The notes under the pieces: model-generated
The model's input: only the letters and a program-made list of their open reading frames with translations
What the model was told of the DNA's origin: nothing
The model's database searches: none
Assembly (NCBI RefSeq): GCF_029029505.1
Contig: NZ_JAKJSD010000003.1
Coordinates: 1-64,000, forward strand
Length of the DNA: 64,000 nucleotides
Source: Ancylomarina sp. DW003
Lineage (GTDB): Bacteria > Bacteroidota > Bacteroidia > Bacteroidales > Marinifilaceae
Direction: 5' to 3'
Shown: positions 51,174-63,692 of the stretch, one piece after another
Numbering within the stretch: the first letter of the stretch is position 1
Layout: each line of letters starts with the position of its first letter
Made by a program: the position numbers and the translations under genes

Positions 51174-52163
51174 ATGAGTTTACGTCCATTATTTCCTCAA
51201 ACACGACTAAGAAGAAATCGTTACAGCAAAGTTGTACGTGATATGGTTGCAGAAACATCGCTTTCAGCAGATGATTTAATCATGCCACTTTTTGTTTGTC
51301 CGGGTGAGAAGGTTAAAAATCCAATTAAGTCGATGCCGGGTAACGATCAGTTATCGGTTGATATGTTGGTTGAAAAATGTAAAGAACTGCATGCTGCAGG
51401 TGTTAAATCGGTATTGCTTTTCGGTATTCCTGAGTCGAAAGACGAGGACGGATCAGTAGCGACTCATGAACATGGTATTGTTCAGAAGGCAACCCGTGCC
51501 ATTAAAGAGGTTTTACCAGAAATGTATATCATTGCTGATATCTGCAATTGCGAGTACACAACTCACGGGCATTGTGGAACCATCATCGATGGTGATGTAG
51601 ATAACGACAGCACTTTGGTAACACTATCTGCACAAGCTGTTTCTTTGGCTGAAGCTGGTGTTGATATGGTTGCTCCATCTGATATGATGGATGGTCGTAT
51701 TGCTCATATGCGTGCTGCTTTGGATGAGAATTGTTTCGAGAAAATGCCAATTATGGCTTACTCGGCTAAATATGCTTCAGGATTTTACGGACCATTTAGA
51801 GATGCAGCTGATTCGGCTCCTCAGTTTGGTGACAGAAGTACCTACCAAATGGATCCTCGAAACAGCGACGAAGCCATTCGTGAGGTTGAGATGGATATTG
51901 CTGAAGGGGCAGATATCGTAATGGTGAAGCCGGCATTGAGTTACCTTGATGTGATTTACCGTACCAAGCACGAGTTTAATACGCCTGTTGCAGCTTATAA
52001 TGTAAGTGGTGAATTCTCTATGGTAAAAGCAGCTCAGGAAAGAGATTGGATTGATGGAAATCGTGTGATGATGGAAATTATGACATCGATTAAACGTGCG
52101 GGTGCTGATATCATCATTACTTACCATGCACAGGAAGTGGCTGAGATTCTTAATAAAAAATAA
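51174..52163 (+). CDS. hemB: Delta-aminolevulinic acid dehydratase (porphobilinogen synthase)
   Basis: A 329-residue enzyme. The catalytic lysines are in MAYSAKYASGFYGPFRDA and VMVKPALSYLDVI. The metal-binding region is ADICNCEYTTHGHCG, in which several Cys suggest a zinc-type site. It condenses two ALA molecules to porphobilinogen, the substrate of HemC. It starts 65 bases after the MITE-like element, which may carry or disturb its promoter. Confidence 0.96.
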   Translation: MSLRPLFPQTRLRRNRYSKVVRDMVAETSLSADDLIMPLFVCPGEKVKNPIKSMPGNDQLSVDMLVEKCKELHAAGVKSVLLFGIPESKDEDGSVATHEHGIVQKATRAIKEVLPEMYIIADICNCEYTTHGHCGTIIDGDVDNDSTLVTLSAQAVSLAEAGVDMVAPSDMMDGRIAHMRAALDENCFEKMPIMAYSAKYASGFYGPFRDAADSAPQFGDRSTYQMDPRNSDEAIREVEMDIAEGADIVMVKPALSYLDVIYRTKHEFNTPVAAYNVSGEFSMVKAAQERDWIDGNRVMMEIMTSIKRAGADIIITYHAQEVAEILNKK

Positions 52164-52302
52164 TTAGATGATGTGGTGATGTGTTGATTTGACGTGCATT
52201 GAGCGCGGTGCCCTGAGTACGTTCATTGAGCGGAGTCGAAATGGAGTCGAAGGGTAGTTAAAATGCGATGCAATTATTACCAATAACCTTTAATTGATCA
52301 CT
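52164..52302. repeat. Short intergenic repeat between hemB and hemE
   Basis: CATTGAGCG occurs twice (52197-52205 and 52224-52232), followed by GGAGTCGAAATGGAGTCGAA. This kind of GAGCGGAGTCGAA sequence is a widespread small repeat in marine Bacteroidota. No gene was seen. Confidence 0.55.
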
Positions 52303-53334
52303 ATGACAAATTCTATTTTTCTAGATACAATAAACGGCATTAAGCGCGAAAGACCACCTGTGTGGTTTATGCGCCAAGCCGGACGCGTGTTACCTTCGTA
52401 TATGAAACTTCGCGAAAGCTATGGCTTTAAACATATGATGGAAGAGCCAAAGCTGGCAGCTGAGGTGACTTTGCTTCCTATTCACGATTTGGGTGTCGAT
52501 GCGGCTATTCTATTTTCTGATATTCTTGTGATTCCTGAAGCCCTGGGTATGGAGTTGAGCTTTGAAGGAAAAGGACCGACCTTTAAAACAGCCCTTAAGG
52601 ATGTTGAAGATCCATTGAAATTCCTGACGGATATGCCTGAGAAATTGGAGCATATTTATAAGGCAATTGATGAAATTTTAGCGACCAAACCAGCTGAAAT
52701 TCCTTTGATCGGATTCTGTGGCGGACCCTTAACCACTTTGTGTTATATGTTCCAGGGTTTTAGCCAGAACCTGAACTTTCCTGACTTTGTACCTGCCATT
52801 TACCGCGATAAGGCGACCATGAAAAAGTTGGTGACTCGTATTACGGAGATGAGTATCCATTATGCACTGAAGCAAGTGGAGCATGGCATACAAGCTTTTC
52901 AGTTGTTCGAAACGCATGCAGGTTTAATTCCTATCGAATTGTATAAAGAGGTGTTCTTACCATCGGTAAAAGCAATTCTTGGAGCCGTACGTGCCAAAGG
53001 TGTAAAGACAATTTACTTGCCTAAGGGATTGGGTACAGGTATCAATATGGTGAATCACGATTTGTGCGACTGTGTGAGTGTCGATTGGCAAACACCCTTG
53101 CACGAGGTTCGTAAGATTGTAGGCGAGGATATGATTCTTCAGGGAAACTTCGATCCCAGAACCTTACTTGCTGATAAGAATGCCATTGATCAGGAATTCG
53201 AATACCATCTGAATTATGGTCGTAAAGATCACAAGTGGATTTTCAACCTGGGACATGGTTTGTTGCCAAACATCCCTGTTGAGAATGTGAAATACTTGAT
53301 TGATAAAGTAAAAACCTCTGATTGGGGAAGATAA
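52303..53334 (+). CDS. hemE: Uroporphyrinogen decarboxylase
   Basis: The ATG at 52303 (MTNSIFLDTING) is preferred over the in-frame TTG at 52294. The 343-residue enzyme has the hallmark PPVWFMRQAGRVLPSYMKLR and the catalytic Asp in AAILFSDILVIPEALGM. It decarboxylates uroporphyrinogen III to coproporphyrinogen III. The gene ends in its own terminator, which recurs about 3.9 kb further on, behind the helicase module. Confidence 0.95.
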   Translation: MTNSIFLDTINGIKRERPPVWFMRQAGRVLPSYMKLRESYGFKHMMEEPKLAAEVTLLPIHDLGVDAAILFSDILVIPEALGMELSFEGKGPTFKTALKDVEDPLKFLTDMPEKLEHIYKAIDEILATKPAEIPLIGFCGGPLTTLCYMFQGFSQNLNFPDFVPAIYRDKATMKKLVTRITEMSIHYALKQVEHGIQAFQLFETHAGLIPIELYKEVFLPSVKAILGAVRAKGVKTIYLPKGLGTGINMVNHDLCDCVSVDWQTPLHEVRKIVGEDMILQGNFDPRTLLADKNAIDQEFEYHLNYGRKDHKWIFNLGHGLLPNIPVENVKYLIDKVKTSDWGR

Positions 53335-53384
53335 GCTTTCCCAAGCAACAAAATATAAAGCCGACTTTAACGAGTCGGCTTTTT
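53333..53384 (+). terminator. hemE terminator (repeat copy T)
   Basis: GCCGACT (53360-53366), a 6-base loop, AGTCGGC (53373-53379), then TTTTT. The stretch 53333-53380 is repeated nearly exactly at 57252-57299 (one difference over about 48 bases). Confidence 0.93.
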
Positions 53385-53427
53385 CTTTGCCTTATTTTAA
53401 TAGATGCACTATTATGTCTTGTCTATT
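53377..53427 (+). repeat. Left copy D of a 51-base direct repeat
   Basis: It starts within the 3' arm of the hemE terminator (GGCTTTTTCTTTGCCTTATT) and includes ATGCACTATTATGTC. Its partner lies at 57090-57140, with 47 of 51 bases identical and no gap. A 12-codon frame (MHYYVLSIQFVI, 53404-53442) is the truncated equivalent of the 48-codon frame at 57117. Confidence 0.9.
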
Positions 53428-53645
53428 CAATTTGTTATTTGACATGTGTTTTTAATATTGTTTAATTGATATTTTACTTAAGTTTGCGTTCTTAATTTAG
53501 AGAATGTACATGTCCTATTATAGAGTTATGACAACAAACTCCTTTTTATTGGGATATGAAAGAAATAACAGCCATATGCTTGTTATAAACTATTAGCCGC
53601 TACATTAATAAAAATAAAGAAGAAAGATTCGAAAATTTTAAAAAT

Positions 53646-55028
53646 ATGAGATTAGACAATTGGTTTATTACAAATCCAGATACCTCACAGCAAGAAGTGC
53701 TTAAAGTTCCAGTCAAACATAGTTTGACAGTAAAAGGCGCAGCAGGGAGTGGGAAAACAAATATGGCAATTTACCGGGCTAATCAAGCAAGAGATAACTC
53801 TTTTGTTATTGTGGTTTATACAGTCGCATTGAAAAAAATGATACGTTATGGTTTGAGTGAGTTAGGGCTTGACAAAGACCGTGTGGTACATGAGTGGTCA
53901 TGGATAAATAGGGGAATTGAATTCTCAGGTGATGTTTTTTGCTTAAAAGGGAACAATGCTCATGGATTAAACCCTTCTCTGTTATTCATAAAATCGGGTA
54001 ATGAGATTCTATTTTTTGTGTCAAGAGATGAATACGATTCAATTGTTAAAAAAGAAAGCTTTTTGAGCTATAATATTCAAAGCATTGAAAATCCCTTTGA
54101 AGTTTCGATTGATTTTGACGATTGGATCGAAGATAAATTTTATTATACATTTTATCGACGTTCTAGATGGTTTAAACAAGTTCAATTATTGGATTTTCAC
54201 TTTGACCCCAATGATAAAAAATATGTATTTATTCCCGCAGGATATTTATTCAAAGAAAAAGGTGAAGTTAATTATGTGATTGTGGACGAGGGACAAGATT
54301 TTACGTTATCCAATTACTCTCAACAATTTATTCCACAAGCAAAAAAATCAATCTCAATTTTTGGGGATACAAATCAAAAAATATATAAAGATAGAAACTG
54401 TAATATTGAGGATGTTGCAACCAGATTTAATTATCCTATGTTGAATCTTAATTTCAATTACAGAGTACCAAAAACAATTGCTAGAGTTGCACAGAATATT
54501 CCTCTACCGCACCTTGATTTACTTTCAAACAATAGAAAAAATAATGGAAACAGTGATTATCCCTCTTTCCCAAAACCGATATTAAAAAGGTGCAATTCGG
54601 AAGAAGAAGAATTACAATACATTCTCAATCGAATACAGACTGAGGGATTAGACGATGTTGCGATTTTGTTGCCCAAAGAAGAGACAGTGAAGGAACTTCA
54701 CAAGTTTTTTTCCGATAATAATGTTGGTACTCAAGTTCGTATAGCCGTCGATACTGGTTCCACCCCATTAGGAAATCGTAAATTTCATAGAATAGATACT
54801 TTGGATTTTACAAATCTTGATTTACCAAGTATTTTGACATATCATAGTGCTAAAGGGACTGAATTTGATAATGTTTTCATTCCGTTTGCTAATGAAGATA
54901 ATGGATTAGAGAGAAATCCTTTTTACGTTGCAATAACAAGGTCAAGTAGTCGTGTTTTCATTACTTATTCTCGAAAACTCACAAGTTTATTAAAAGATGT
55001 TAGTTCTAATGATGTAATATTTCAATAA
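53646..55028 (+). CDS. Compact superfamily 1 (UvrD/Rep-like) helicase
   Basis: A 460-residue SF1 helicase-like ATPase. Visible motifs: Q-motif region DTSQQEVLK, Walker A GAAGSGKT (residues 31-38), motif II VDEGQDF (D214-D218), motif III SIFGDTNQKIY, motif IV LNFNYRVPKTIARVA, motif V LTYHSAKGTEFDNVFIP and motif VI FYVAITRSSSRVFITYS. All are intact, so it should hydrolyse ATP. It is much shorter than UvrD or Rep, which suggests reduced accessory domains. It is followed after one base by the 612-residue gene. AT-richer than the hem genes. Such small helicases often belong to two-gene defence modules; here that is inference. Confidence 0.85.
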   Translation: MRLDNWFITNPDTSQQEVLKVPVKHSLTVKGAAGSGKTNMAIYRANQARDNSFVIVVYTVALKKMIRYGLSELGLDKDRVVHEWSWINRGIEFSGDVFCLKGNNAHGLNPSLLFIKSGNEILFFVSRDEYDSIVKKESFLSYNIQSIENPFEVSIDFDDWIEDKFYYTFYRRSRWFKQVQLLDFHFDPNDKKYVFIPAGYLFKEKGEVNYVIVDEGQDFTLSNYSQQFIPQAKKSISIFGDTNQKIYKDRNCNIEDVATRFNYPMLNLNFNYRVPKTIARVAQNIPLPHLDLLSNNRKNNGNSDYPSFPKPILKRCNSEEEELQYILNRIQTEGLDDVAILLPKEETVKELHKFFSDNNVGTQVRIAVDTGSTPLGNRKFHRIDTLDFTNLDLPSILTYHSAKGTEFDNVFIPFANEDNGLERNPFYVAITRSSSRVFITYSRKLTSLLKDVSSNDVIFQ

Positions 55029-55029
55029 T

Positions 55030-56868
55030 ATGGCAACGAAGAAATCTGCTAAAAAATGTTTTTGGATTCCAATAAACATTTGGAATTTGAATGAATTGTT
55101 TACAACAGAGAGTATTTCACCAATTTCTTTTTACAGAGTACGTGAATTTGGAAATCCTGTTAATCGTAATCAAGAAAAAGTTGAAGATCCAAACAAATTG
55201 ATTTTATTTGATAACGTTGTAAAAAGTGATATTCTATTAAAAATTTCACCTGACTTGTTGAATTTTCAATGTTTGACAGAAATTAAATCGAACAAGAAAG
55301 CCAAATTAAAAAGTTTTGAATATTCGAAAACAATATATCTGAAAAGTGGCCTATTCAATGTGTATTTTAGTAATCAAGGAAAACTGGACGAGTTTTTGAA
55401 CAACACATTTATGTTACTGGAGGTGAAATCCGTTAATAAGTACAAATCTGATTTTGTTATTGATGAAACAATAAGTACGCAAAGACAGGAAGCGACGTAT
55501 CAGCAACAACTTATGTCTGAGGAAAATAAAGTTCAACCTTTTTTTGATAAAGCATTTAACCAAATTAAAGGTTTAATTTACGGTTATCTTATTGGCTCAA
55601 TTGGCACATTAGGAGAAAAGGAACAAGGCTTAATTTCTAGTTTATCTAAATTAAAAAATGCGATTGGTGGTATTCATACTGATATTGTTATGGTAAATCA
55701 GTATTCGAATTTTTGGATTATTAATGTTCGTAAGCAAATAAAAGATTGCCATAAATCATATTCTGATAATTTCGGTAAACAATCTGATATTTTAGAATTA
55801 CTACTTCTGAGATTGGAAGAGATTGATAGTCTTAATATAATGAGGTGCTCTGATTTGGAGAAACAGAGCAGCCCTAATTACAAAAGAGATTATGAAACTG
55901 AACAAGAAAGGTTAGAAAAAGCTAAACGAGAACTTTACAAATATGAATCGAAATACGAAATAGCACCTTTAAGGGAAGAATTGGAAAGAATAAAACAAGA
56001 TGAAAAAAACAAAGGAATAGCAAAAGGTAAAACAAGAGAATATTACAAAAAAGATTCTTACGAGTTTAATCGTAAGCAAGAATTGAAACGATTAATTAAT
56101 GATTTAGAAAATGAACATGAATATCAAGAGCTTAAAAAAGCTGTTGGAATTCAGATTGAAAAAGTACGCAATTTTCAATTTGGTTTTACACAATACGATA
56201 CCTCTATAACAGAACAATTTAGCAGAATATCAGAACAACTATATGAAATTATAAAAAGAACAACAAGTTCTTTTTTGTCAAAAAGCAACCAGTCAAATGA
56301 TTTCTCAGATATTTCATTTGAAATCGACATATCAAAATTAACCAATTTTTATTGCAATCCTAAAACAAAATACGCTGACTTTTCCGTTAAGTTTCCTGAA
56401 AAAATTGTTGAAAGATTTACGAAAACTGAATTGAAACTGCTTACTGTTTCTATAAATTCGTTACTATCACAACCCCAAGGACAACTGGGTAACTTTTCTG
56501 AGCAAAATATTTTGGATGTTATAAAAAGTATTGGCGAGCATTTGCCTGAAAGTTTGGATAAACAAATTTTACGTGATTATTACATGTATCGGGATGGAAA
56601 AAACGATAATTTTATTTTCCCTGAAAATATAGTCTTAGGCAATTTAATTGTCTTTTTGATGAAATTGAATGGGCACGAACAAATTAATAAAATGCTTTTA
56701 ACAAAAAATATCGAAGAAAAGTATATTGCATTTATGTTTTATGGTGCATATGTTGGATTTGCTAATATGCCTAAAACATTTACAAATATAGTTTTTGATA
56801 GTAATAACTCAGAATTAACTAATGGCATAGATAATTACTTATTTAGTAATGTATTAATGAATTTTTAA
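55030..56868 (+). CDS. Unrecognised 612-residue partner of the helicase
   Basis: The ATG is one base after the helicase stop, so translation is coupled. I do not recognise the family. The N-terminal part (residues 1-135) is predicted to be mixed alpha/beta (CFWIPINIWNLNELF; NVYFSNQGKLDEFL). Residues 175-270 contain GLIYGYLIGSIGTLGE and VRKQIKDCHKSY. About 277-380 form a highly charged, probably coiled-coil, region (YETEQERLEKAKRELYKYES; ELKRLINDLENEHEYQEL). The C-terminal third is helical with a hydrophobic stretch. No nuclease, protease or membrane motif was certain. It is probably the effector or a structural partner of the helicase. Confidence 0.8.
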   Translation: MATKKSAKKCFWIPINIWNLNELFTTESISPISFYRVREFGNPVNRNQEKVEDPNKLILFDNVVKSDILLKISPDLLNFQCLTEIKSNKKAKLKSFEYSKTIYLKSGLFNVYFSNQGKLDEFLNNTFMLLEVKSVNKYKSDFVIDETISTQRQEATYQQQLMSEENKVQPFFDKAFNQIKGLIYGYLIGSIGTLGEKEQGLISSLSKLKNAIGGIHTDIVMVNQYSNFWIINVRKQIKDCHKSYSDNFGKQSDILELLLLRLEEIDSLNIMRCSDLEKQSSPNYKRDYETEQERLEKAKRELYKYESKYEIAPLREELERIKQDEKNKGIAKGKTREYYKKDSYEFNRKQELKRLINDLENEHEYQELKKAVGIQIEKVRNFQFGFTQYDTSITEQFSRISEQLYEIIKRTTSSFLSKSNQSNDFSDISFEIDISKLTNFYCNPKTKYADFSVKFPEKIVERFTKTELKLLTVSINSLLSQPQGQLGNFSEQNILDVIKSIGEHLPESLDKQILRDYYMYRDGKNDNFIFPENIVLGNLIVFLMKLNGHEQINKMLLTKNIEEKYIAFMFYGAYVGFANMPKTFTNIVFDSNNSELTNGIDNYLFSNVLMNF

Positions 56869-57089
56869 TGGGTAATTAACAGTTTGGAAGGGAAGGCGTA
56901 TGGCCAACAGGCATTTATATGTAACAGGTGATGCCCCGATAACGCGAGTTTAACTATGTTACTCCCTCTGGTCGTGAGCTCCATTTCGTTTCGGTTGTAG
57001 CTTGTACTTTGCGAATACAAACCAAACTTTTGTACTCTGGCAATTATTTAAAACTTGACTATGCAAAAGGCTGTCTCATTGTTTGAGGT

Positions 57090-57140
57090 GGCTTTTTCTT
57101 TGCCTTATTATAACAGATGCACTATTATGTCGTATCTATT
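57090..57140 (+). repeat. Right copy D' of the 51-base direct repeat
   Basis: 47 of 51 positions match the left copy at 53377-53427 without gaps. It comes directly after AGGCTGTCTC..GAGGTGG, which looks like half of a small hairpin. Confidence 0.9.
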
Positions 57141-57263
57141 ATTTATATTGGTAAAGTTCATCGAGAAAATGCCAATACAGGAAAACGCTTTAGCCAGTAT
57201 ATTTCCGTAGAAGAAGGAAAAGGAGCTTATAAACGTCTAACTGGGGGAGAGAAGCTTTCCTAA
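57117..57263 (+). CDS. Small 48-codon frame between repeat copies
   Basis: ATG at 57117 to TAA at 57261-57263, starting MHYYVVSIIYIGKVHRENAN and ending LTGGEKLS. Its first eight codons lie in the D' repeat and its end runs into the duplicated hemE-terminator segment. The last 20 bases before AAGCTTTCC match the last codons of hemE at about 16 of 20 positions. It may be a residual gene that was broken by the insertion, or a chance frame. Confidence 0.35.
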   Translation: MHYYVVSIIYIGKVHRENANTGKRFSQYISVEEGKGAYKRLTGGEKLS

Positions 57264-57305
57264 GCAACAAAATATAAAGCCGACTTTAACGAGTCGGCTT
57301 TTTTT
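57252..57305 (+). terminator. Duplicate of the hemE terminator (T')
   Basis: GCCGACT (57279-57285), a 6-base loop, AGTCGGC (57292-57298) and T8. The 48 bases 57252-57299 match 53333-53380 with one difference. Confidence 0.92.
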
Positions 57306-57440
57306 TGTAAACCACTTATAGTCAGACTGACAAAGCAGTATGGAGCAAGTTTTAATCAAACACTTATAAAAGCTTAGAGAACTCTTAATCAGAGGTATTT
57401 ATCCTTATATCAAAAAGTTGTTATTTTACTCTATAAATAT

Positions 57441-57467
57441 TTGGTTTTTATTTTTTTTATACATTTG
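57441..57467 (+). promoter_or_regulatory. Promoter of the HU-like/DUF4469 gene
   Basis: TTG (57441-57443) and TACATTTG (57460-57467), which fits TAnnTTTG. The 16-base spacer is somewhat short. The start codon is at 57512. Confidence 0.55.
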
Positions 57468-57511
57468 CAAGTATCAATAACATTATTTTATTCACTTTAT
57501 AAAGCAAAGTT

Positions 57512-58219
57512 ATGAGTTTAAAGTACAGTTTAACCGAAAACCTGCTCACAGCAGAAGTTGACGATTACAACGCTCGTCCACAAGAAGTAACAAGCTATGA
57601 TTTAGAGGATATTATAGCACAAATGCTCGAAAAAGGCAGCACAGTAACCCGTTCAGACATTCTTGCTGTGCTCAACAATTTTTTTGAAGTGGCAGGTACA
57701 ATTACCTCCAATGGCGGAATGATTAATACCGATTTATTTAAAACCAATTTTTCGGTAACAGGCGTGTTCAATGGTGCAACAGATGCTTTTGATAAAAGCC
57801 GTCATGCCATTAAAATTAATACCAATGCCGGAAAAGTTCTCAAAACAGCCCTGACAAAAGTAAAGGTAGAGAAAGTTGCCAGCGCCGAAACCATTCCTCA
57901 CATACTGGAAGTAAAAGACAGCATTAGCGGTAGTGTAAACGACCAAATAAGCTCAGAAGGGGTGTTGGAGATTACAGGAAGTCGCCTTAAATTAGATGGA
58001 GACAATGCCACCAATGGTGTCTATCTTGTAGCCAGCGATAATACCAGAAACAAGGTTGTTACTGTAGTCGATAACAAACCCGCAAGATTAATTGTTATAC
58101 TACCCACGCTTGCTGCCGGAGAATATTCCCTGCAAATAACAACCCAATACAATGGAGGAGGCTCAGGTCTCAAAAGCCCCCGAACAGGAACATTTAGTAA
58201 ACTTCTGACGGTTGTGTAA
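57512..58219 (+). CDS. HU-like DNA-binding protein with DUF4469 domain
   Basis: A 235-residue protein of a Bacteroidota-specific type. The N-terminal 125 residues have the HU/IHF-like fold found beside DUF4469 (MSLKYSLTENLLTAEVDDYN; VTRSDILAVLNNFFEV; HAIKINTNAGKVLKTAL). The C-terminal 100 residues are an Ig-like DUF4469 domain (LEITGSRLKLDGDNATNGVY; IVILPTLAAGEYSLQITTQY). It is likely to bind DNA in a non-specific or architectural way. It has its own promoter and terminator. A 4 x 23 base tandem repeat begins directly at its stop codon. Confidence 0.88.
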   Translation: MSLKYSLTENLLTAEVDDYNARPQEVTSYDLEDIIAQMLEKGSTVTRSDILAVLNNFFEVAGTITSNGGMINTDLFKTNFSVTGVFNGATDAFDKSRHAIKINTNAGKVLKTALTKVKVEKVASAETIPHILEVKDSISGSVNDQISSEGVLEITGSRLKLDGDNATNGVYLVASDNTRNKVVTVVDNKPARLIVILPTLAAGEYSLQITTQYNGGGSGLKSPRTGTFSKLLTVV

Positions 58220-58315
58220 TGTCAGGAGGTCTGATAGCACGCTGTCAAGGGGTCTGATAGCATACTGTCAAGGGATCTGATAGCATGCTGTCAAGGAGTC
58301 TGATAGCATACTGTC
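58220..58315. repeat. Four tandem copies of a 23-base repeat
   Basis: Units at 58220-58242, 58243-58265, 58266-58288 and 58289-58311, plus four bases of a fifth. Consensus parts: TGTCAAGGGG then TCTGATAGCATAC. At each junction the near-palindrome TGATAGCATGCTGTCA is formed. The units differ at a few positions, so the array is not new. There are no spacers, so it is not a CRISPR. Confidence 0.9.
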
Positions 58316-58350
58316 TTTCATCTTCTATTTGTCAGCATCCTTATCAGAAA

Positions 58351-58387
58351 AGAGAATGTGGATTAAGCTGCATTCTCTTTTTTTGTT
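58351..58387 (+). terminator. Terminator behind the HU-like/DUF4469 gene
   Basis: AGAGAATG (58351-58358), a loop of 12, CATTCTCT (58371-58378), then a T run. Confidence 0.8.
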
Positions 58388-58448
58388 AACTTCGGCGAAC
58401 CAAAGGATAAAACACTTTTACGATATATGGAATAGCTCATAAAATAAA

Positions 58449-58493
58449 AAAGGTGCACAATACACTCCATATTGGCATGTATTGTACACCTTT
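58449..58493 (-). terminator. Strong hairpin with minus-strand T tract
   Basis: AAAGGTGCACAATACA (58449-58464) and TGTATTGTACACCTTT (58478-58493) pair at 15 of 16 positions. On the minus strand the stem is followed by TTTTTTATTTTAT. There is no minus-strand gene upstream of it for several kb, so it may protect from antisense transcription or be part of a mobile unit's end. Confidence 0.7.
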
Positions 58494-58540
58494 GAAATAA
58501 TGTATAAGAAAAATAAGTGCACCAGTGCACATAGAAACAA

Positions 58541-58554
58541 GTTGTACCCAATAC
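58541..58554. repeat. Left inverted repeat of the 342-residue gene unit
   Basis: GTTGTACCCAATAC. Its complement recurs as GTACTGGGTACAAC at 59595-59608 (13 of 14 positions). It stands 10 bases before the start codon. Confidence 0.75.
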
Positions 58555-58564
58555 GAGAAACCAG

Positions 58565-59593
58565 ATGATTCAATTTGAAAAACAGATTAATAATAATGTA
58601 TTGGACATACCTGAATTAAAAGAATTGAGAAATCAAGACTGGAAATTCAGAACAAAAAAAACATATTACCATAAAAAGAAACTTCTTGAAAAACTAAATT
58701 CATTTTTTGACTGGTACGTGAGTTATTGTAAATCTAATTTGAAAGGAAAAACATATAGCCAAAAGAATATTTCACAATTAGTTTTAAAATTAAGCTTTAA
58801 AAATCAACAACATTGGAATGAATACTTGACAAAAAGCCTATTCCTTTCTTTAGAATACGTCAAATATTTAAAGAACGTTGTAACGATTAAAAATATCGGA
58901 GCATTTGACCACACACTATCAAGTTTAGAAATTGATTTAGAGTGGCTAATAGCGAGTTATGAAGTAGATGTTAAAAAAACAGTTAAGTCTATATCATTAA
59001 ATAGCGGAAGACGAAAAAATTTGTCGCCAACTGATTTGTTCTCTGCTGTTAGAACTTTATTCAGAATAGAAGAATTCTCTAAAATGGAAGAACTCTATTT
59101 GAGAGATTTAAAACCCGTTGTTATGTTTCAAATAAGACAGCTACTCGAAGTTTACGGAAGAGAATTAATAGGTTATTATGCTATTAATGACAAAAATGGT
59201 CTTCCTGTTAAAAAATTCACTCAAGTTTCTTGGGAATTTATAAAAGAAGAAGTTAAATCAAAAAAATCAAGAATAAAATTCCCTTTTGACGTTCAGATGA
59301 TTATTGATATTAACCGTTGGACTAATAATTTTGTTCATACAACATATCTTCACAGTTCATATATTCAATACTTTGTTTTAAAAGCAATTGGAGTTCTTTT
59401 TGCATCTAAATCAAAAGGAATTAAAATTTATACAGGTAAAATAAGTAATCGATTTGACATTGCAGATATAGAAATCACTAACTATAACAGTCTGAAAACT
59501 GATTTCGAACAGTATTTAAACAACAAGATTCCCAATACATTTGTAGAATGGATGCCGACAAATAAAGTTGGAGCATACATAATTTCGGAATAA
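58565..59593 (+). CDS. Unrecognised 342-residue protein with an HEPN-like R-x6-H motif
   Basis: A basic, mainly helical protein with no family I can name. Near the end of a helical domain it has R251-WTNNFV-H258 followed by HTTYLHSS. This has the spacing of the R-x4-6-H motif of HEPN ribonucleases, and the preceding helix (QIRQLLEVYGRELIGYY, about 190-206) would fit a bundle. This is suggestive and not proof. The last 70 residues (IKIYTGKISNRFDIADIEIT) form a small beta part. The gene is very AT-rich. It is bracketed by 14-base inverted repeats only 10 bases before the ATG and 1 base after the stop, like a gene cassette. Confidence 0.7.
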   Translation: MIQFEKQINNNVLDIPELKELRNQDWKFRTKKTYYHKKKLLEKLNSFFDWYVSYCKSNLKGKTYSQKNISQLVLKLSFKNQQHWNEYLTKSLFLSLEYVKYLKNVVTIKNIGAFDHTLSSLEIDLEWLIASYEVDVKKTVKSISLNSGRRKNLSPTDLFSAVRTLFRIEEFSKMEELYLRDLKPVVMFQIRQLLEVYGRELIGYYAINDKNGLPVKKFTQVSWEFIKEEVKSKKSRIKFPFDVQMIIDINRWTNNFVHTTYLHSSYIQYFVLKAIGVLFASKSKGIKIYTGKISNRFDIADIEITNYNSLKTDFEQYLNNKIPNTFVEWMPTNKVGAYIISE

Positions 59594-59594
59594 A

Positions 59595-59608
59595 GTACTG
59601 GGTACAAC
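59595..59608. repeat. Right inverted repeat of the 342-residue gene unit
   Basis: GTACTGGGTACAAC, the complement of 58541-58554 at 13 of 14 positions, one base after the stop codon. Confidence 0.75.
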
Positions 59609-59933
59609 ATTGTATAAACACAATGCGGTGTAAGGTGCTTAAAATGAACGAATTATGCATTAATAAGTAATAGTGCAAGCTGAAAGTGAAGTGCAATTAA
59701 AACCCGCACTACGCTTATACTTTACCGTTATGCGCAAGCAGAAAAAACGAATGAATCATTTATTTTAAGAATAAAAACTCTAGGATATCAGGGGGGCAAA
59801 ACAGTGATCATGCTCATGCAGGGCACACACAACATGTATAATTTTATTGCTAAGGTGATTCAGTAAATTAAAATTCCTGCAATTTATTTATCTTTAATCA
59901 ATCGGAAAGTAATGTATATTAAGAACCGCAACA

Positions 59934-60043
59934 AATCATACGATTTCCTGTTCTACGCAATTTAAACGAACCTGCAACAATATTTAACACCAGTACTTTT
60001 GATTACAGTTCGTTCTATTACTCAAACAGGAAATCGTATGATT
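59934..60043. repeat. Long inverted repeat upstream of the AraC-type regulator
   Basis: AATCATACGATTTCCTGTT (59934-59952) and its perfect complement (60025-60043), 19 bases each. Inside them is a second arm pair AACGAAC (59965-59971) / GTTCGTT (60008-60014). As RNA this would fold into one long two-step hairpin of 110 bases, ending 37 bases before the start codon at 60081. It may be an operator, a small RNA or a transposon end. Confidence 0.8.
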
Positions 60044-60080
60044 ATGCATTATTAAATTATATTTATCATTTACATTTTAA

Positions 60081-61220
60081 ATGGAATTTTCAATTTTAGG
60101 AATAATAACAATTTTTATACTATTTACTTCACTTTTATTAGCCTTATTTGTTTTAACAGTTAAAGTATCTAACAAAAAGGCAAATAGGTTTTTAGGTATC
60201 TATTTTTTAATCTTTGCCATTCATATTAGTGTTTTCTTTTACTCTAAATACATTACTTTACCCTCTGTTTTAGAAATGCTTCGCGACCATATTGCCTTTT
60301 TTACAAGTCCTTTATTGTTTTTCTATTTAATAGCTTCTATTTATTCAAATTTCAAGTTAAAACCTAAACATCTATTTCATATACTACCATTTGTAATTCA
60401 AATATTGATTTTTTCACCAAGGTTTTATTTTGCAAGTTTAAGCACAAGAAACTTTTTACTTGAAAACTTAAACAACACCATAGAAGGAAAACTTTCTATA
60501 ATTTTCGGCTTGCTTGTAGCTCTTTTTTATTTGATTGCGATGTTTGTAGAATTAAGAAAATACAAACAATTATTGTTAGAAAATTATTCAAATAAATCTG
60601 CTTTCAATTATAAATGGCTTTATCAACTATTAGTGTTATTAGTTACGATTTATTGTTTTTCATTGTTAAAACAAGTTTATAAGTTATATGGAACTGATGT
60701 TGAAATATTAAATGTTTTAAGAGTAATTCTTACTTTGGTTTTGCTTGTTTTTTTAACCTGGATTGTTTTAAAAAGTATGTACTATCCAAATCTTTTTAGA
60801 AGTATTAATTCAGAACATACATTAGCAAAAAAAATATTAATAGAAGATAATATAACCAATAAGTCAGAAAAGGACAGTAGTGAAGATGTTAATAGGTTGT
60901 TGGAGTTTATGGAAACCGAAGAACCTTACCTTGACGCTACTTTGACACTACAAAAACTTGCGGGTAAAATAGAATTACCAAACCGAGATCTTTCAATATT
61001 GATTAATCATAATCTGAATCAACATTTTTTTGATTTCATAAATCAATTTAGAATAAAAAAAGCGCAGCGCATTCTACTAAATCCAGATAATAATCAGTTA
61101 ACCATACAACAAATTATGTATGATGTTGGGTTTAACTCTAAATCTTCCTTTTATACTGCTTTTAAAAAGCAAACAGGTCTAACACCATCAGAATACAGAA
61201 AAAATAAGGTGTTTTCTTAA
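60081..61220 (+). CDS. Membrane-bound AraC-family transcriptional regulator
   Basis: A 379-residue protein. Residues 1-235 have seven probable membrane helices (for example IITIFILFTSLLLALFVLTV and TLVLLVFLTWIVL). The C-terminal 100 residues are an AraC-type double helix-turn-helix (LTLQKLAGKIELPNRDLSIL; IQQIMYDVGFNSKSSFYTAF; KKQTGLTPSEYRKN). Such membrane-AraC fusions are common in Bacteroidota and are thought to sense a signal in the membrane. Its probable targets are the following two serine-hydrolase genes on the same strand. A large inverted repeat lies upstream. Confidence 0.92.
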   Translation: MEFSILGIITIFILFTSLLLALFVLTVKVSNKKANRFLGIYFLIFAIHISVFFYSKYITLPSVLEMLRDHIAFFTSPLLFFYLIASIYSNFKLKPKHLFHILPFVIQILIFSPRFYFASLSTRNFLLENLNNTIEGKLSIIFGLLVALFYLIAMFVELRKYKQLLLENYSNKSAFNYKWLYQLLVLLVTIYCFSLLKQVYKLYGTDVEILNVLRVILTLVLLVFLTWIVLKSMYYPNLFRSINSEHTLAKKILIEDNITNKSEKDSSEDVNRLLEFMETEEPYLDATLTLQKLAGKIELPNRDLSILINHNLNQHFFDFINQFRIKKAQRILLNPDNNQLTIQQIMYDVGFNSKSSFYTAFKKQTGLTPSEYRKNKVFS

Positions 61221-61311
61221 TTTTTTTGATTAAAAAGGGTTCGACTTTATATAGTCGAACCTCATTAACTAATTATTTATTTTCATTTGTACCGAATTTA
61301 AATAAATAATA

Positions 61312-62487
61312 ATGAAAAACTTATCAATACTTTTAACGCTACTCTTTATCTGCTGGAGTTGCAAATCGCAAAATAGACAAGCAAATAAGATAGTCGTCCA
61401 TAATAATAAATCTGTTGAGATTTATAGTGATGCAATTGGTAAAGAAATAAAGCAAATCATAGATAAAAATGCTAAAGAACTTTTAAAAGATTCTTTAATA
61501 AATTCTTTGTCCATTGGGCTTTATATAAATAATGTAGCCTTGTCATTTAACTATGGGGAGTTAACAAAAGGGGAAGGAGATATTCCAACAAATAAAACTA
61601 TATATGAAATTGCTTCTGTTACAAAAACATTTACTGGCACATTAGCAGCAAAAGCTGTTTTAGAAGAAAAATTGACTTTGGAAGATGATATTAGAAAATA
61701 CTTACCAAAACCTTATCTTAATTTAGAACATAAAGGAAGACCTATTAAAATTAAACATCTACTAACTCATACTAGTGGATTGCCAGGAGATGTAATAGCT
61801 CTGGATACCGAAATAAATCAAAATTCAAATGAAATAGAATTTAATAAAGTAGTTGTCGCTCACGAAAACAAAAAAACAAAGGGCATTTTTTTTGAAAGCC
61901 TTTCAAAAATTAAGCTTACTGAAAAACCGGGAACGACTTTTAACTATTCAAATGCGGGAACAAATTTAATGGGATATATTTTAGAAAAAGTTTATAAACA
62001 ACCTTTTCAGAAATTAATAATGAATGAAGTGGTTGCAAAAGCAAAAATGGAAGACACCTATTTCAATGTTCCTAAAAACAAACAGTATAGACTGGCAAAT
62101 GGTTACTTGTTAGGGAAACCAATGCCGGAAACTAAATTAGCCAATACGCTTTGGGGAGCAGAAGGTGCATTAAAATCTACTACAGCAGATATGCTGAAAT
62201 ATATAAATTATCAATTTAAAAATGATAAAATTGTAAAAGAATCCCATAAAAAGATATTCGAAATTGATACTGATTATTGGATAGGCTATTTTTGGTGGAG
62301 TATTGAAAATCAAAATTACGATTTACACTACCGACACGATGGCGGTATTTCTAGAGCAAAGAATGTCCTAGCTATCTTTCCTGAAAATAAAATTGGGATT
62401 TCAATTTTCACTAACGAATCTGCCATTAATGTGAATCAAAAGTTATCTAATTTAACTCATACGATTTATAACGAACTGAAAAAGTAA
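61312..62487 (+). CDS. Serine hydrolase lipoprotein (beta-lactamase-like), first of two
   Basis: A 391-residue lipoprotein with a lipobox in LFICWSCKSQ. The class C beta-lactamase fold has SxxK in ASVTKTFTGT, YxN in FNYSNAGTNL and a third motif HDGG in YRHDGGISRA. The substrate is unknown; peptide or ester hydrolysis or peptidoglycan turnover is possible. It lies 92 bases after the AraC-type regulator and 170 bases before a second serine hydrolase with the same motifs but a secreted form. Confidence 0.9.
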   Translation: MKNLSILLTLLFICWSCKSQNRQANKIVVHNNKSVEIYSDAIGKEIKQIIDKNAKELLKDSLINSLSIGLYINNVALSFNYGELTKGEGDIPTNKTIYEIASVTKTFTGTLAAKAVLEEKLTLEDDIRKYLPKPYLNLEHKGRPIKIKHLLTHTSGLPGDVIALDTEINQNSNEIEFNKVVVAHENKKTKGIFFESLSKIKLTEKPGTTFNYSNAGTNLMGYILEKVYKQPFQKLIMNEVVAKAKMEDTYFNVPKNKQYRLANGYLLGKPMPETKLANTLWGAEGALKSTTADMLKYINYQFKNDKIVKESHKKIFEIDTDYWIGYFWWSIENQNYDLHYRHDGGISRAKNVLAIFPENKIGISIFTNESAINVNQKLSNLTHTIYNELKK

Positions 62488-62657
62488 TTGCTAACTTTTT
62501 TTAATATACTCTTGACCATATAATTTACCACAAACCTACTCATTGAGTCAAAAAGCTTAAAGATTCTGTTACCTGTCGCTTTTTTCTTTTTTATATGTAT
62601 AAAAGTATCAACTTTGAATTAATAATTAAAAAAATAAACTTCAAATTTCACTTATTT

Positions 62658-63692
62658 ATGAAAAAAACATTTATCCTTCTGTTAGTACTCACCTACTCTT
62701 TTATAAGTTATTCACAAAATCAAAAGTTGGACAGCTTATTCTCTAATTATGAAAAAGAAAATGAAGCAATGGGAGCTGTTTCCATTTTAAAAAATGGCAA
62801 TGAATTTTTCACAAAAGCTATCGGGTATGCAAGTATTGAATTAAACAAAAAAAATAACTCTGAAACTAAATTTAGAATTGGCTCTATTAGCAAAACTTTT
62901 ACAGCAACCATTATTTTGCAATTGGCAGATGAAGGGAAATTATCACTTAACGATTTCCTAAATCAATACTTTCCTGAAATTCCTAATTCAGAAAAAATTA
63001 CCATTTCTGATATGTTGTATCATAGAAGTGGGATTTATAATATTACAACAGAGAAAAACTTTGAAGCTTGGATTAGTGAGCCTAGAAATAAAAACGAAAT
63101 ACTAACTAAAATTAAAGGATATAAAAGTTTGTTTAAGCCAGGTTCTAAAACAGAATATTCAAATTCTAATTATATTTTATTGGCTTATATAGCCGAAGAT
63201 TTAGACAAACAGACTTTTGGAGAAATCATACAAAAAAGAATTATTAAAAAGCTAAATTTAACAAATACAGATTTTGGTAAGGACATAAATTTTTCTAAAA
63301 ATGAAGCAATGTGTTATTACCTGGAAAATGGCAAATGGAAAACAATTACGTTTTACACAAACTTAACAGGAACAATGGGTGCAGGTGGAATTATATCTAA
63401 TGCAAAAGATGTAAGTCTCTTTTACAATGCTCTTTTTACGGGAAAATTACTTTCAGAAAAAAGCTTACAGTTAATGACAACACCCAAAGAACAAATGGGA
63501 ATGGGAATTTCTGTGAATGATTTTAATGGAATAACAGTTTATGGGCACGATGGTGCAATTGATGGGTTTCGCTCAATGGCAGTTTACATTCCAAAATTCG
63601 AGTCAACCATTGTTTTTACTTTTAATGCTTCTTCTGGTTCTACAGGAAGAAAATTACAACAAATAGTTAAACTGTATATGCAAACTTTATAG
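62658..63692 (+). CDS. Secreted serine hydrolase (beta-lactamase-like), second of two
   Basis: The frame is open from 62595, but the ATG at 62658 starts directly with a signal peptide (MKKTFILLLVLTYSFISYSQ), so it is preferred. The 344-residue enzyme has SxxK in IGSISKTFTATI, YxN in EYSNSNYILL and HDG in YGHDGAIDGF. It is related to, but clearly diverged from, the preceding hydrolase. AT-rich like the rest of the region. Confidence 0.9.
   Translation: MKKTFILLLVLTYSFISYSQNQKLDSLFSNYEKENEAMGAVSILKNGNEFFTKAIGYASIELNKKNNSETKFRIGSISKTFTATIILQLADEGKLSLNDFLNQYFPEIPNSEKITISDMLYHRSGIYNITTEKNFEAWISEPRNKNEILTKIKGYKSLFKPGSKTEYSNSNYILLAYIAEDLDKQTFGEIIQKRIIKKLNLTNTDFGKDINFSKNEAMCYYLENGKWKTITFYTNLTGTMGAGGIISNAKDVSLFYNALFTGKLLSEKSLQLMTTPKEQMGMGISVNDFNGITVYGHDGAIDGFRSMAVYIPKFESTIVFTFNASSGSTGRKLQQIVKLYMQTL

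Follow-up and report, generated by a model that had tools for sequence, protein, structure and literature searches.

Copies of the hemE terminator between variable gene blocks in the hemE-kinase interval of Ancylomarina

Repeats around a helicase gene pair downstream of hemE

The window analysed here is the whole stretch of 64,000 nucleotides that opens contig NZ_JAKJSD010000003.1 of Ancylomarina sp. DW003, so that its coordinates are also those of the contig. The features on which our analysis is focused are the following:

52303-53334, + strand: hemE (uroporphyrinogen decarboxylase; Pfam URO-D, 2.2e-93), the left flank of the hotspot, kept in five of five genomes of the genus
53309-53387, + strand: T, the final 26 bases of hemE and its terminator; 71/79 identical to 57228-57306
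53372-53427, + strand: D, a spacer directly behind T that overlaps the end of T; 50/56 identical to 57085-57140
53646-55028, + strand: SF1 (UvrD-type) helicase gene, 460 aa (Pfam UvrD_C, UvrD-helicase)
55030-56868, + strand: partner gene, 612 aa; an N-domain (about residues 10-145) followed by long helices in the predicted models
57067-57092, + strand: hairpin in front of D', unlike T in sequence (paired by eye from the sequence)
57085-57140, + strand: D', the second copy of D (50/56)
57117-57263, + strand: 48-codon frame, for which 194 genomes hold no credible relative; probably not a gene
57228-57306, + strand: T', a decayed hemE end with a well-kept terminator (71/79 to T)
57512-63692, + strand: further cargo, namely an HU/DUF4469 protein, an unknown 342-aa protein, an AraC regulator and two genes of the PF00144 serine-hydrolase family

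The first-pass annotation of the window had described T and D, together with T' and D', as direct repeats that bracket an inserted helicase module, and the coordinates and identities it gave for the cores of the repeats are exact: 47 of 48 positions for T (53333-53380 against 57252-57299) and 47 of 51 for D (53377-53427 against 57090-57140), with the T match extending further than had been noted, to 79 bases with 71 identities. The two parts of T' are conserved to different degrees: the 26 bases of the hemE end, stop codon included, match in 20 positions, and the 53 bases after the stop in 51; beyond the edges of T and T', identity drops to 1-4 of 10 per step. A chance origin of the repeats is rejected both by shuffling and by the genome-wide rank of the matches: 200 dinucleotide shuffles of 53441-60440 gave no ungapped match better than 43/79 for T and 30/51 for D, and when the 4.84 Mb genome is searched with the T-D stretch, the highest-ranking matches other than the stretch itself are T' (E 3.6e-24), D' (1.4e-14) and, at 5.5e-10, a decayed third copy of T, all three being located on the hemE contig within 21 kb. 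The third T occupies 74469-74537 and ends 148 bases upstream of a kinase gene; both T' and the third T carry the window species' own AAGCAACAAAATATAAA, and the hemE terminators of the relatives are without AAGCAACAAAATATAAA.

The 48-codon frame had been proposed as the remainder of an older small gene that was split by the insertion. The frame exists at 57117-57263, but the split gene is rejected: a search of 194 genomes returned a single non-self match (E 0.0115), within an unrelated long ORF, and there is no match in Pfam, PADLOC, NCBIfam or PHROG. As for RNA genes, no Rfam family reaches its gathering score between positions 52000 and 90000 of the contig. Between the partner gene and D', a short motif (56995-57034) recurs at 88-93% in the fetched regions of two relatives, G002 and G003.

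A variable interval between hemE and a sensor kinase

The surroundings of hemE were compared across a genus set of five genomes, one per species: that of the window (G000), with its contig taken up to position 130000, and the other four of the genus (G001 to G004), from which regions of 60, 60 and 40 kb and two contigs of 20 and 17.7 kb were fetched. The next downstream gene common to four of the five encodes a PAS-domain sensor histidine kinase (Pfam), and the distance from hemE to this kinase is 856 bases in G001, 3527 in G002, 8036 in G004 and 21351 in G000. DNA homology between G000 and these three relatives ends at 53388-53397 and resumes at 74592-74593, barring the T copies and some short matches.

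The contents of the interval are largely private to the window species: of the 12 cargo ORFs that are 100 aa or longer, 11 are without a match at E <= 1e-8 in the relatives' fetched regions, and the remaining one, that of the HU/DUF4469 protein, matches at 29% over 83 aa. The regions fetched around hemE from the four relatives contain neither the helicase gene nor its partner, and the partner gene is absent from their whole genomes. The cargo is AT-rich, its 500-base windows having a GC content of 0.28-0.35, compared with 0.41-0.44 over 51250-53249, and no integrase or transposase family was recognised by Pfam among the scanned cargo ORFs (12 in G000, where 1037 aa of a 1112-aa ORF were covered, 9 in G004 and 3 in G002), a scan that small or broken genes could escape. 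The earlier proposal is thereby supported as to an AT-rich, foreign-looking insertion behind hemE, accompanied by a copy of the hemE 3' end in T' and by no integrase or transposase among the ORFs between hemE and the kinase. Since the cargo of the gap varies, and homology ends at the terminator and resumes just before the kinase, the helicase pair makes up a single block within a larger hotspot.

Two further features accompany the window cargo: a tandem repeat with a 23-base period and about four copies (58217-58308), located directly behind the HU/DUF4469 gene, and, behind this repeat, a stretch (58310-58446) that is 79% like one on contig C120 of G003, where further partial copies stand.

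The fifth genome, G003, is a draft in 230 contigs whose order is not recoverable. Its hemE terminator abuts a gene which elsewhere follows the like terminator of the kinase, and no kinase match is found in this genome at E <= 1e-100, with one present in four of the five genomes of the genus; as read from the sequence, this layout suggests what a terminator-to-terminator deletion would leave. On C120 of the same genome, a hemE 3' fragment, 80% identical over 163 bases to the genuine end of hemE, stands with a T before a TauE-family gene, and another T follows this gene. The second T and the DNA downstream of it form a 73-base stretch that is 81% identical to the hemE terminator and flank on C102; C86 carries a third T of this type, with a like flank. 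The evidence from G003 is suggestive only, since the draft gives no contig order and may contain gaps.

T and D copies across the genus

If T and D were a scar of the helicase module, as had been proposed, relatives without the module would be expected to carry single copies. Instead, a second T-like copy occurs inside the hemE-kinase gap of both G002 (46 bases, 80%) and G004 (59 bases, 78%), neither of which has the helicase pair, and a D-like tail follows it in each (G002 C1:784011; G004 C47:282953), with a further D-like tail behind a different hairpin in G004 (C47:281807). The near-empty gap of G001 holds no second T. An extra T is thus present inside the gap in all three genomes that have cargo there, and each relative without the module has three or more T-family hairpins, several of them sharing with T only the roughly 28-base hairpin. 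The module-specific scar is therefore rejected; because G002 and G004 carry copies in the same gap, around other genes, the T and D repeats belong to the hotspot and not to the helicase module.

The claim that the repeats derive from the 3' flank of the host gene holds for T, which includes the end of hemE, but not for D: in an unfiltered search of the fetched hemE regions, none of the four relatives showed a D behind the terminator of hemE itself, and D is rejected as an ancestral flank of hemE. The D-like copies of G002 and G004 are located about 90-100 bases before unrelated genes.

In searches with sequence models of T and D, 150 first-look candidates were scored in each of 24 genomes, a depth at which weaker copies could escape. 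The 13 matches of the T model at E <= 1e-6, seven of which are its own seeds, all fall within the genus: 10 are near hemE on the hemE contig, and three are on other contigs of G003; the best match outside the genus among the candidates scored has an E-value of 2.1e-6. The bare hairpin, with at most one mismatch, occurs at 17 sites in the five genomes, three to five per genome, against none in the backward control; 12 of the sites are near hemE on the hemE contig, and the other five are on G000 C45 (two), G004 C14, G003 C120 and G003 C86. Copies are thus not scattered over many unrelated sites within these searches, and a few T-family hairpins do lie elsewhere.

For the D model, the matches at E <= 1e-4 are its own five seeds; below these, among the 150 candidates scored per genome, come G003 C152:2138 (E 0.0028), directly behind a T match, and one in G026, a genome of another family (0.0061). 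A pattern of the window's D with up to two mismatches has 17 matches in the five genomes: D, D', the three copies of G002 and G004, and 12 others that look like chance, because the backward control gave 8. The T-D unit of G003 C152 (L116) spans 2095-2190 and lies about 1.6 kb from an IS200-like (Y1) transposase gene (16-480). A weak D-like tail (E 0.02) is also seen behind the TauE gene of G000, at about 85180-85222 of the contig (L010 14176-14240).

The helicase-partner pair

The pair is a conserved two-gene operon with a sporadic distribution in Bacteroidota; in some of its loci, known defence genes are neighbours. The partner is present in four of the 144 genomes searched, the window's own included, and in seven loci of a species collection, whose record titles name Bacteroidota (Marseilla being placed in this phylum). 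The pair loci are that of the window (53646-56868), L037-L039 and L069-L075, and a helicase homologue is located directly upstream of the partner, on the same strand, in 10 of the 10 loci examined (8 distinct, with L039 representing a distant member). Among the neighbours scanned, three loci have WYL regulators and two have defence-type reverse transcriptases, and AbiD and an RT-associated DUF1848 protein each occur in a single locus. In two loci, L072 (7753-8799) and L073 (3774-4595), a DUF1848 protein, RT-associated according to PADLOC, is encoded downstream, and a methyltransferase-like protein that is weakly similar to part of the RT_UG35 profile is encoded upstream of the helicase.

The helicase has a partial match to the GajB profiles of PADLOC. 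The partner has no Pfam or PADLOC match at E <= 1, and sequence searches of Pfam, NCBIfam, PHROGs, PADLOC and PDB gave weak or coiled-coil-like matches only. Its full predicted model (pLDDT 73.9) has no PDB match at E <= 1e-3, with DarT entries ranking 2, 5 and 12 at probabilities of 0.94-0.96. For the model of the N-domain (pLDDT 76.6), the top seven PDB matches found by Foldseek are Tpt1 and DarT, with E-values from 1.9e-3 to 8e-2 and hence none at or below 1e-3; among viral predicted structures four match at E <= 1e-3, two of them uncharacterised and two unnamed. In the sequence alignment, residues R38, Y103 and E131 are invariant in eight of eight close members, and E131 varies once the ninth, distant member is included. 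Judged from these models, the N-domain resembles the DarT/Tpt1 ADP-ribosyltransferase folds, and the partner is likely an effector of this fold coupled to the helicase. The pair would probably act in phage defence; it is an unnamed candidate system, its partner being named by no family library.

Discussion

The hemE-kinase interval combines T and D copies that are concentrated locally, and that surround different cargo in different species, with scanned cargo ORFs in which no recombinase family is recognised. The explanation that we place first, with about even confidence, is that the interval is a genus-level hotspot of gene turnover without a recombinase of its own, in which blocks are gained and lost between copies of T, and in places of T and D. 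In its favour are also the spread of gap lengths, the AAGCAACAAAATATAAA that T' and the third T have in common with the window species' T, the layout of G003 and the precedent of documented hotspots without recombinases. The T/D units would supply homology for ordinary recombination, of RecA type or homology-assisted: an incoming segment or circle with a T copy would add a block and one extra T, recombination between two T copies would remove a block, and new blocks would enter next to hemE, pushing older T copies outward. The order of decay, with T intact, T' part-decayed and the third T most decayed, fits such an outward push; the difference between the post-stop (51/53) and coding (20/26) parts of T' is likewise compatible with constraint or gene conversion, and a single event is not enough to give the nested order T-D ... 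D'-T'. Several findings stand against turnover by the repeats: the stretches of identity, 79 bases for T-T' and 56 for D-D', are short for efficient homologous recombination, some T-family hairpins are located elsewhere (twice on G000 C45, once on G004 C14), and the hotspot begins at a terminator and ends at a promoter region, limits that selection alone could explain. The junctions behind the turnover reading are compared between species only, with G003 contributing an unordered draft.

A serious rival, which we regard as possible though on balance doubtful, is that insertion takes place at the flanking genes and that the T and D copies arose independently, by separate local duplication or gene conversion, with no role in insertion. 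The edges of homology, at the terminator and just before the kinase gene, are those it would leave, most T-family hairpins have only about 28 bases in common, and recombination at flanking core genes has been proposed for other hotspots, in the passages considered of PMC5635113. It is countered by the hemE coding sequence that T copies contain, and by the T copies that accompany the cargo in three of three cargo-bearing genomes.

Site-specific integration, with the 3' end of hemE as attB, the recombinase acting in trans or since lost, and T' and the third T as att remnants of successive insertions, appears improbable to us. It would account for direct repeats that include the end of the gene, for the restored gene and the outward decay, and for the hemE 3' fragment elsewhere in G003; against it stand the lack of a recombinase family in the scanned cargo ORFs of G000 (12), G004 (9) and G002 (3), cargo that is wholly different between species, and a second T in G002 without the hemE-end part. 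That D rather than T bounds a small mobile unit, D-helicase-partner-D', is very improbable: D and D' do flank exactly the pair, and relatives are without D at hemE's own terminator, but the D-like copies of G002 and G004 stand before unrelated genes, and no recombination gene is present.

Returning to turnover between T copies, we may go one step further and suggest, as an unlikely extension, that T and D form an exchange site at which blocks ending in a T-type terminator enter behind hemE and leave through recombination between T copies, producing a terminator-punctuated array in which ordinary recombination replaces an integrase, and which delivered an undescribed helicase-ADP-ribosyltransferase defence pair. 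Many bacterial hotspots are without a recombinase, and the route by which genes enter them is unclear; at a locus where successive blocks are separated by copies of one flank's terminator, the scars would be visible and the route could be tested, because such repeats predict which segments are expected to leave or enter. For the pair, the predicted fold suggests that a helicase is coupled to an NAD-dependent modification, whose target may be nucleic acid.

Comparison with known systems

The model of the partner's N-domain resembles the fold of DarT toxins and Tpt1/KptA, from which the partner differs in having no sequence-level match, in being fused to long helices and in being encoded behind a helicase; unlike for DarT, no DarG-type gene was recognised beside it among the neighbours scanned with general profiles. 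With Gabija (GajA and GajB) and other UvrD-helicase defence systems, the pair shares a UvrD-like helicase and a second gene in one operon; it differs from Gabija in that the GajB profiles match the helicase only partially, and GajA is missing from the pair, because the partner has no PADLOC match. At the level of titles and abstract openings, we recognised nothing in the literature on terminator-linked hotspots, minimal mobile elements and helicase or ADP-ribosyltransferase pairs that describes a hotspot or a pair of this sort; both may nevertheless be published.

Tyrosine-integrase islands at the 3' ends of genes leave a direct repeat of the 3' end and a whole host gene, and grow by tandem accretion. 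The hemE locus resembles them in the direct repetition of the gene's 3' end (T, T' and the third T), in its whole hemE and in its apparent tandem accretion, and differs from them in that there is no integrase in the scanned cargo, the cargo is not shared and several T copies are without the gene-end part.

Hotspots without recombinases are documented in the passages considered of Oliveira et al. (2017, PMC5635113), according to which half of hotspots show no evidence of mobile elements and 27% have neither integrases nor transposases, and which propose recombination at the flanking core genes. The hemE-kinase interval is like these hotspots in its fixed core flanks, in cargo that differs wholly from genome to genome and in the absence of mobile-element genes from the scanned cargo. 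The hotspot is thus of a known kind, and its unusual detail, not described in those passages, is that copies of one flank's 3' end and terminator stand between the blocks.
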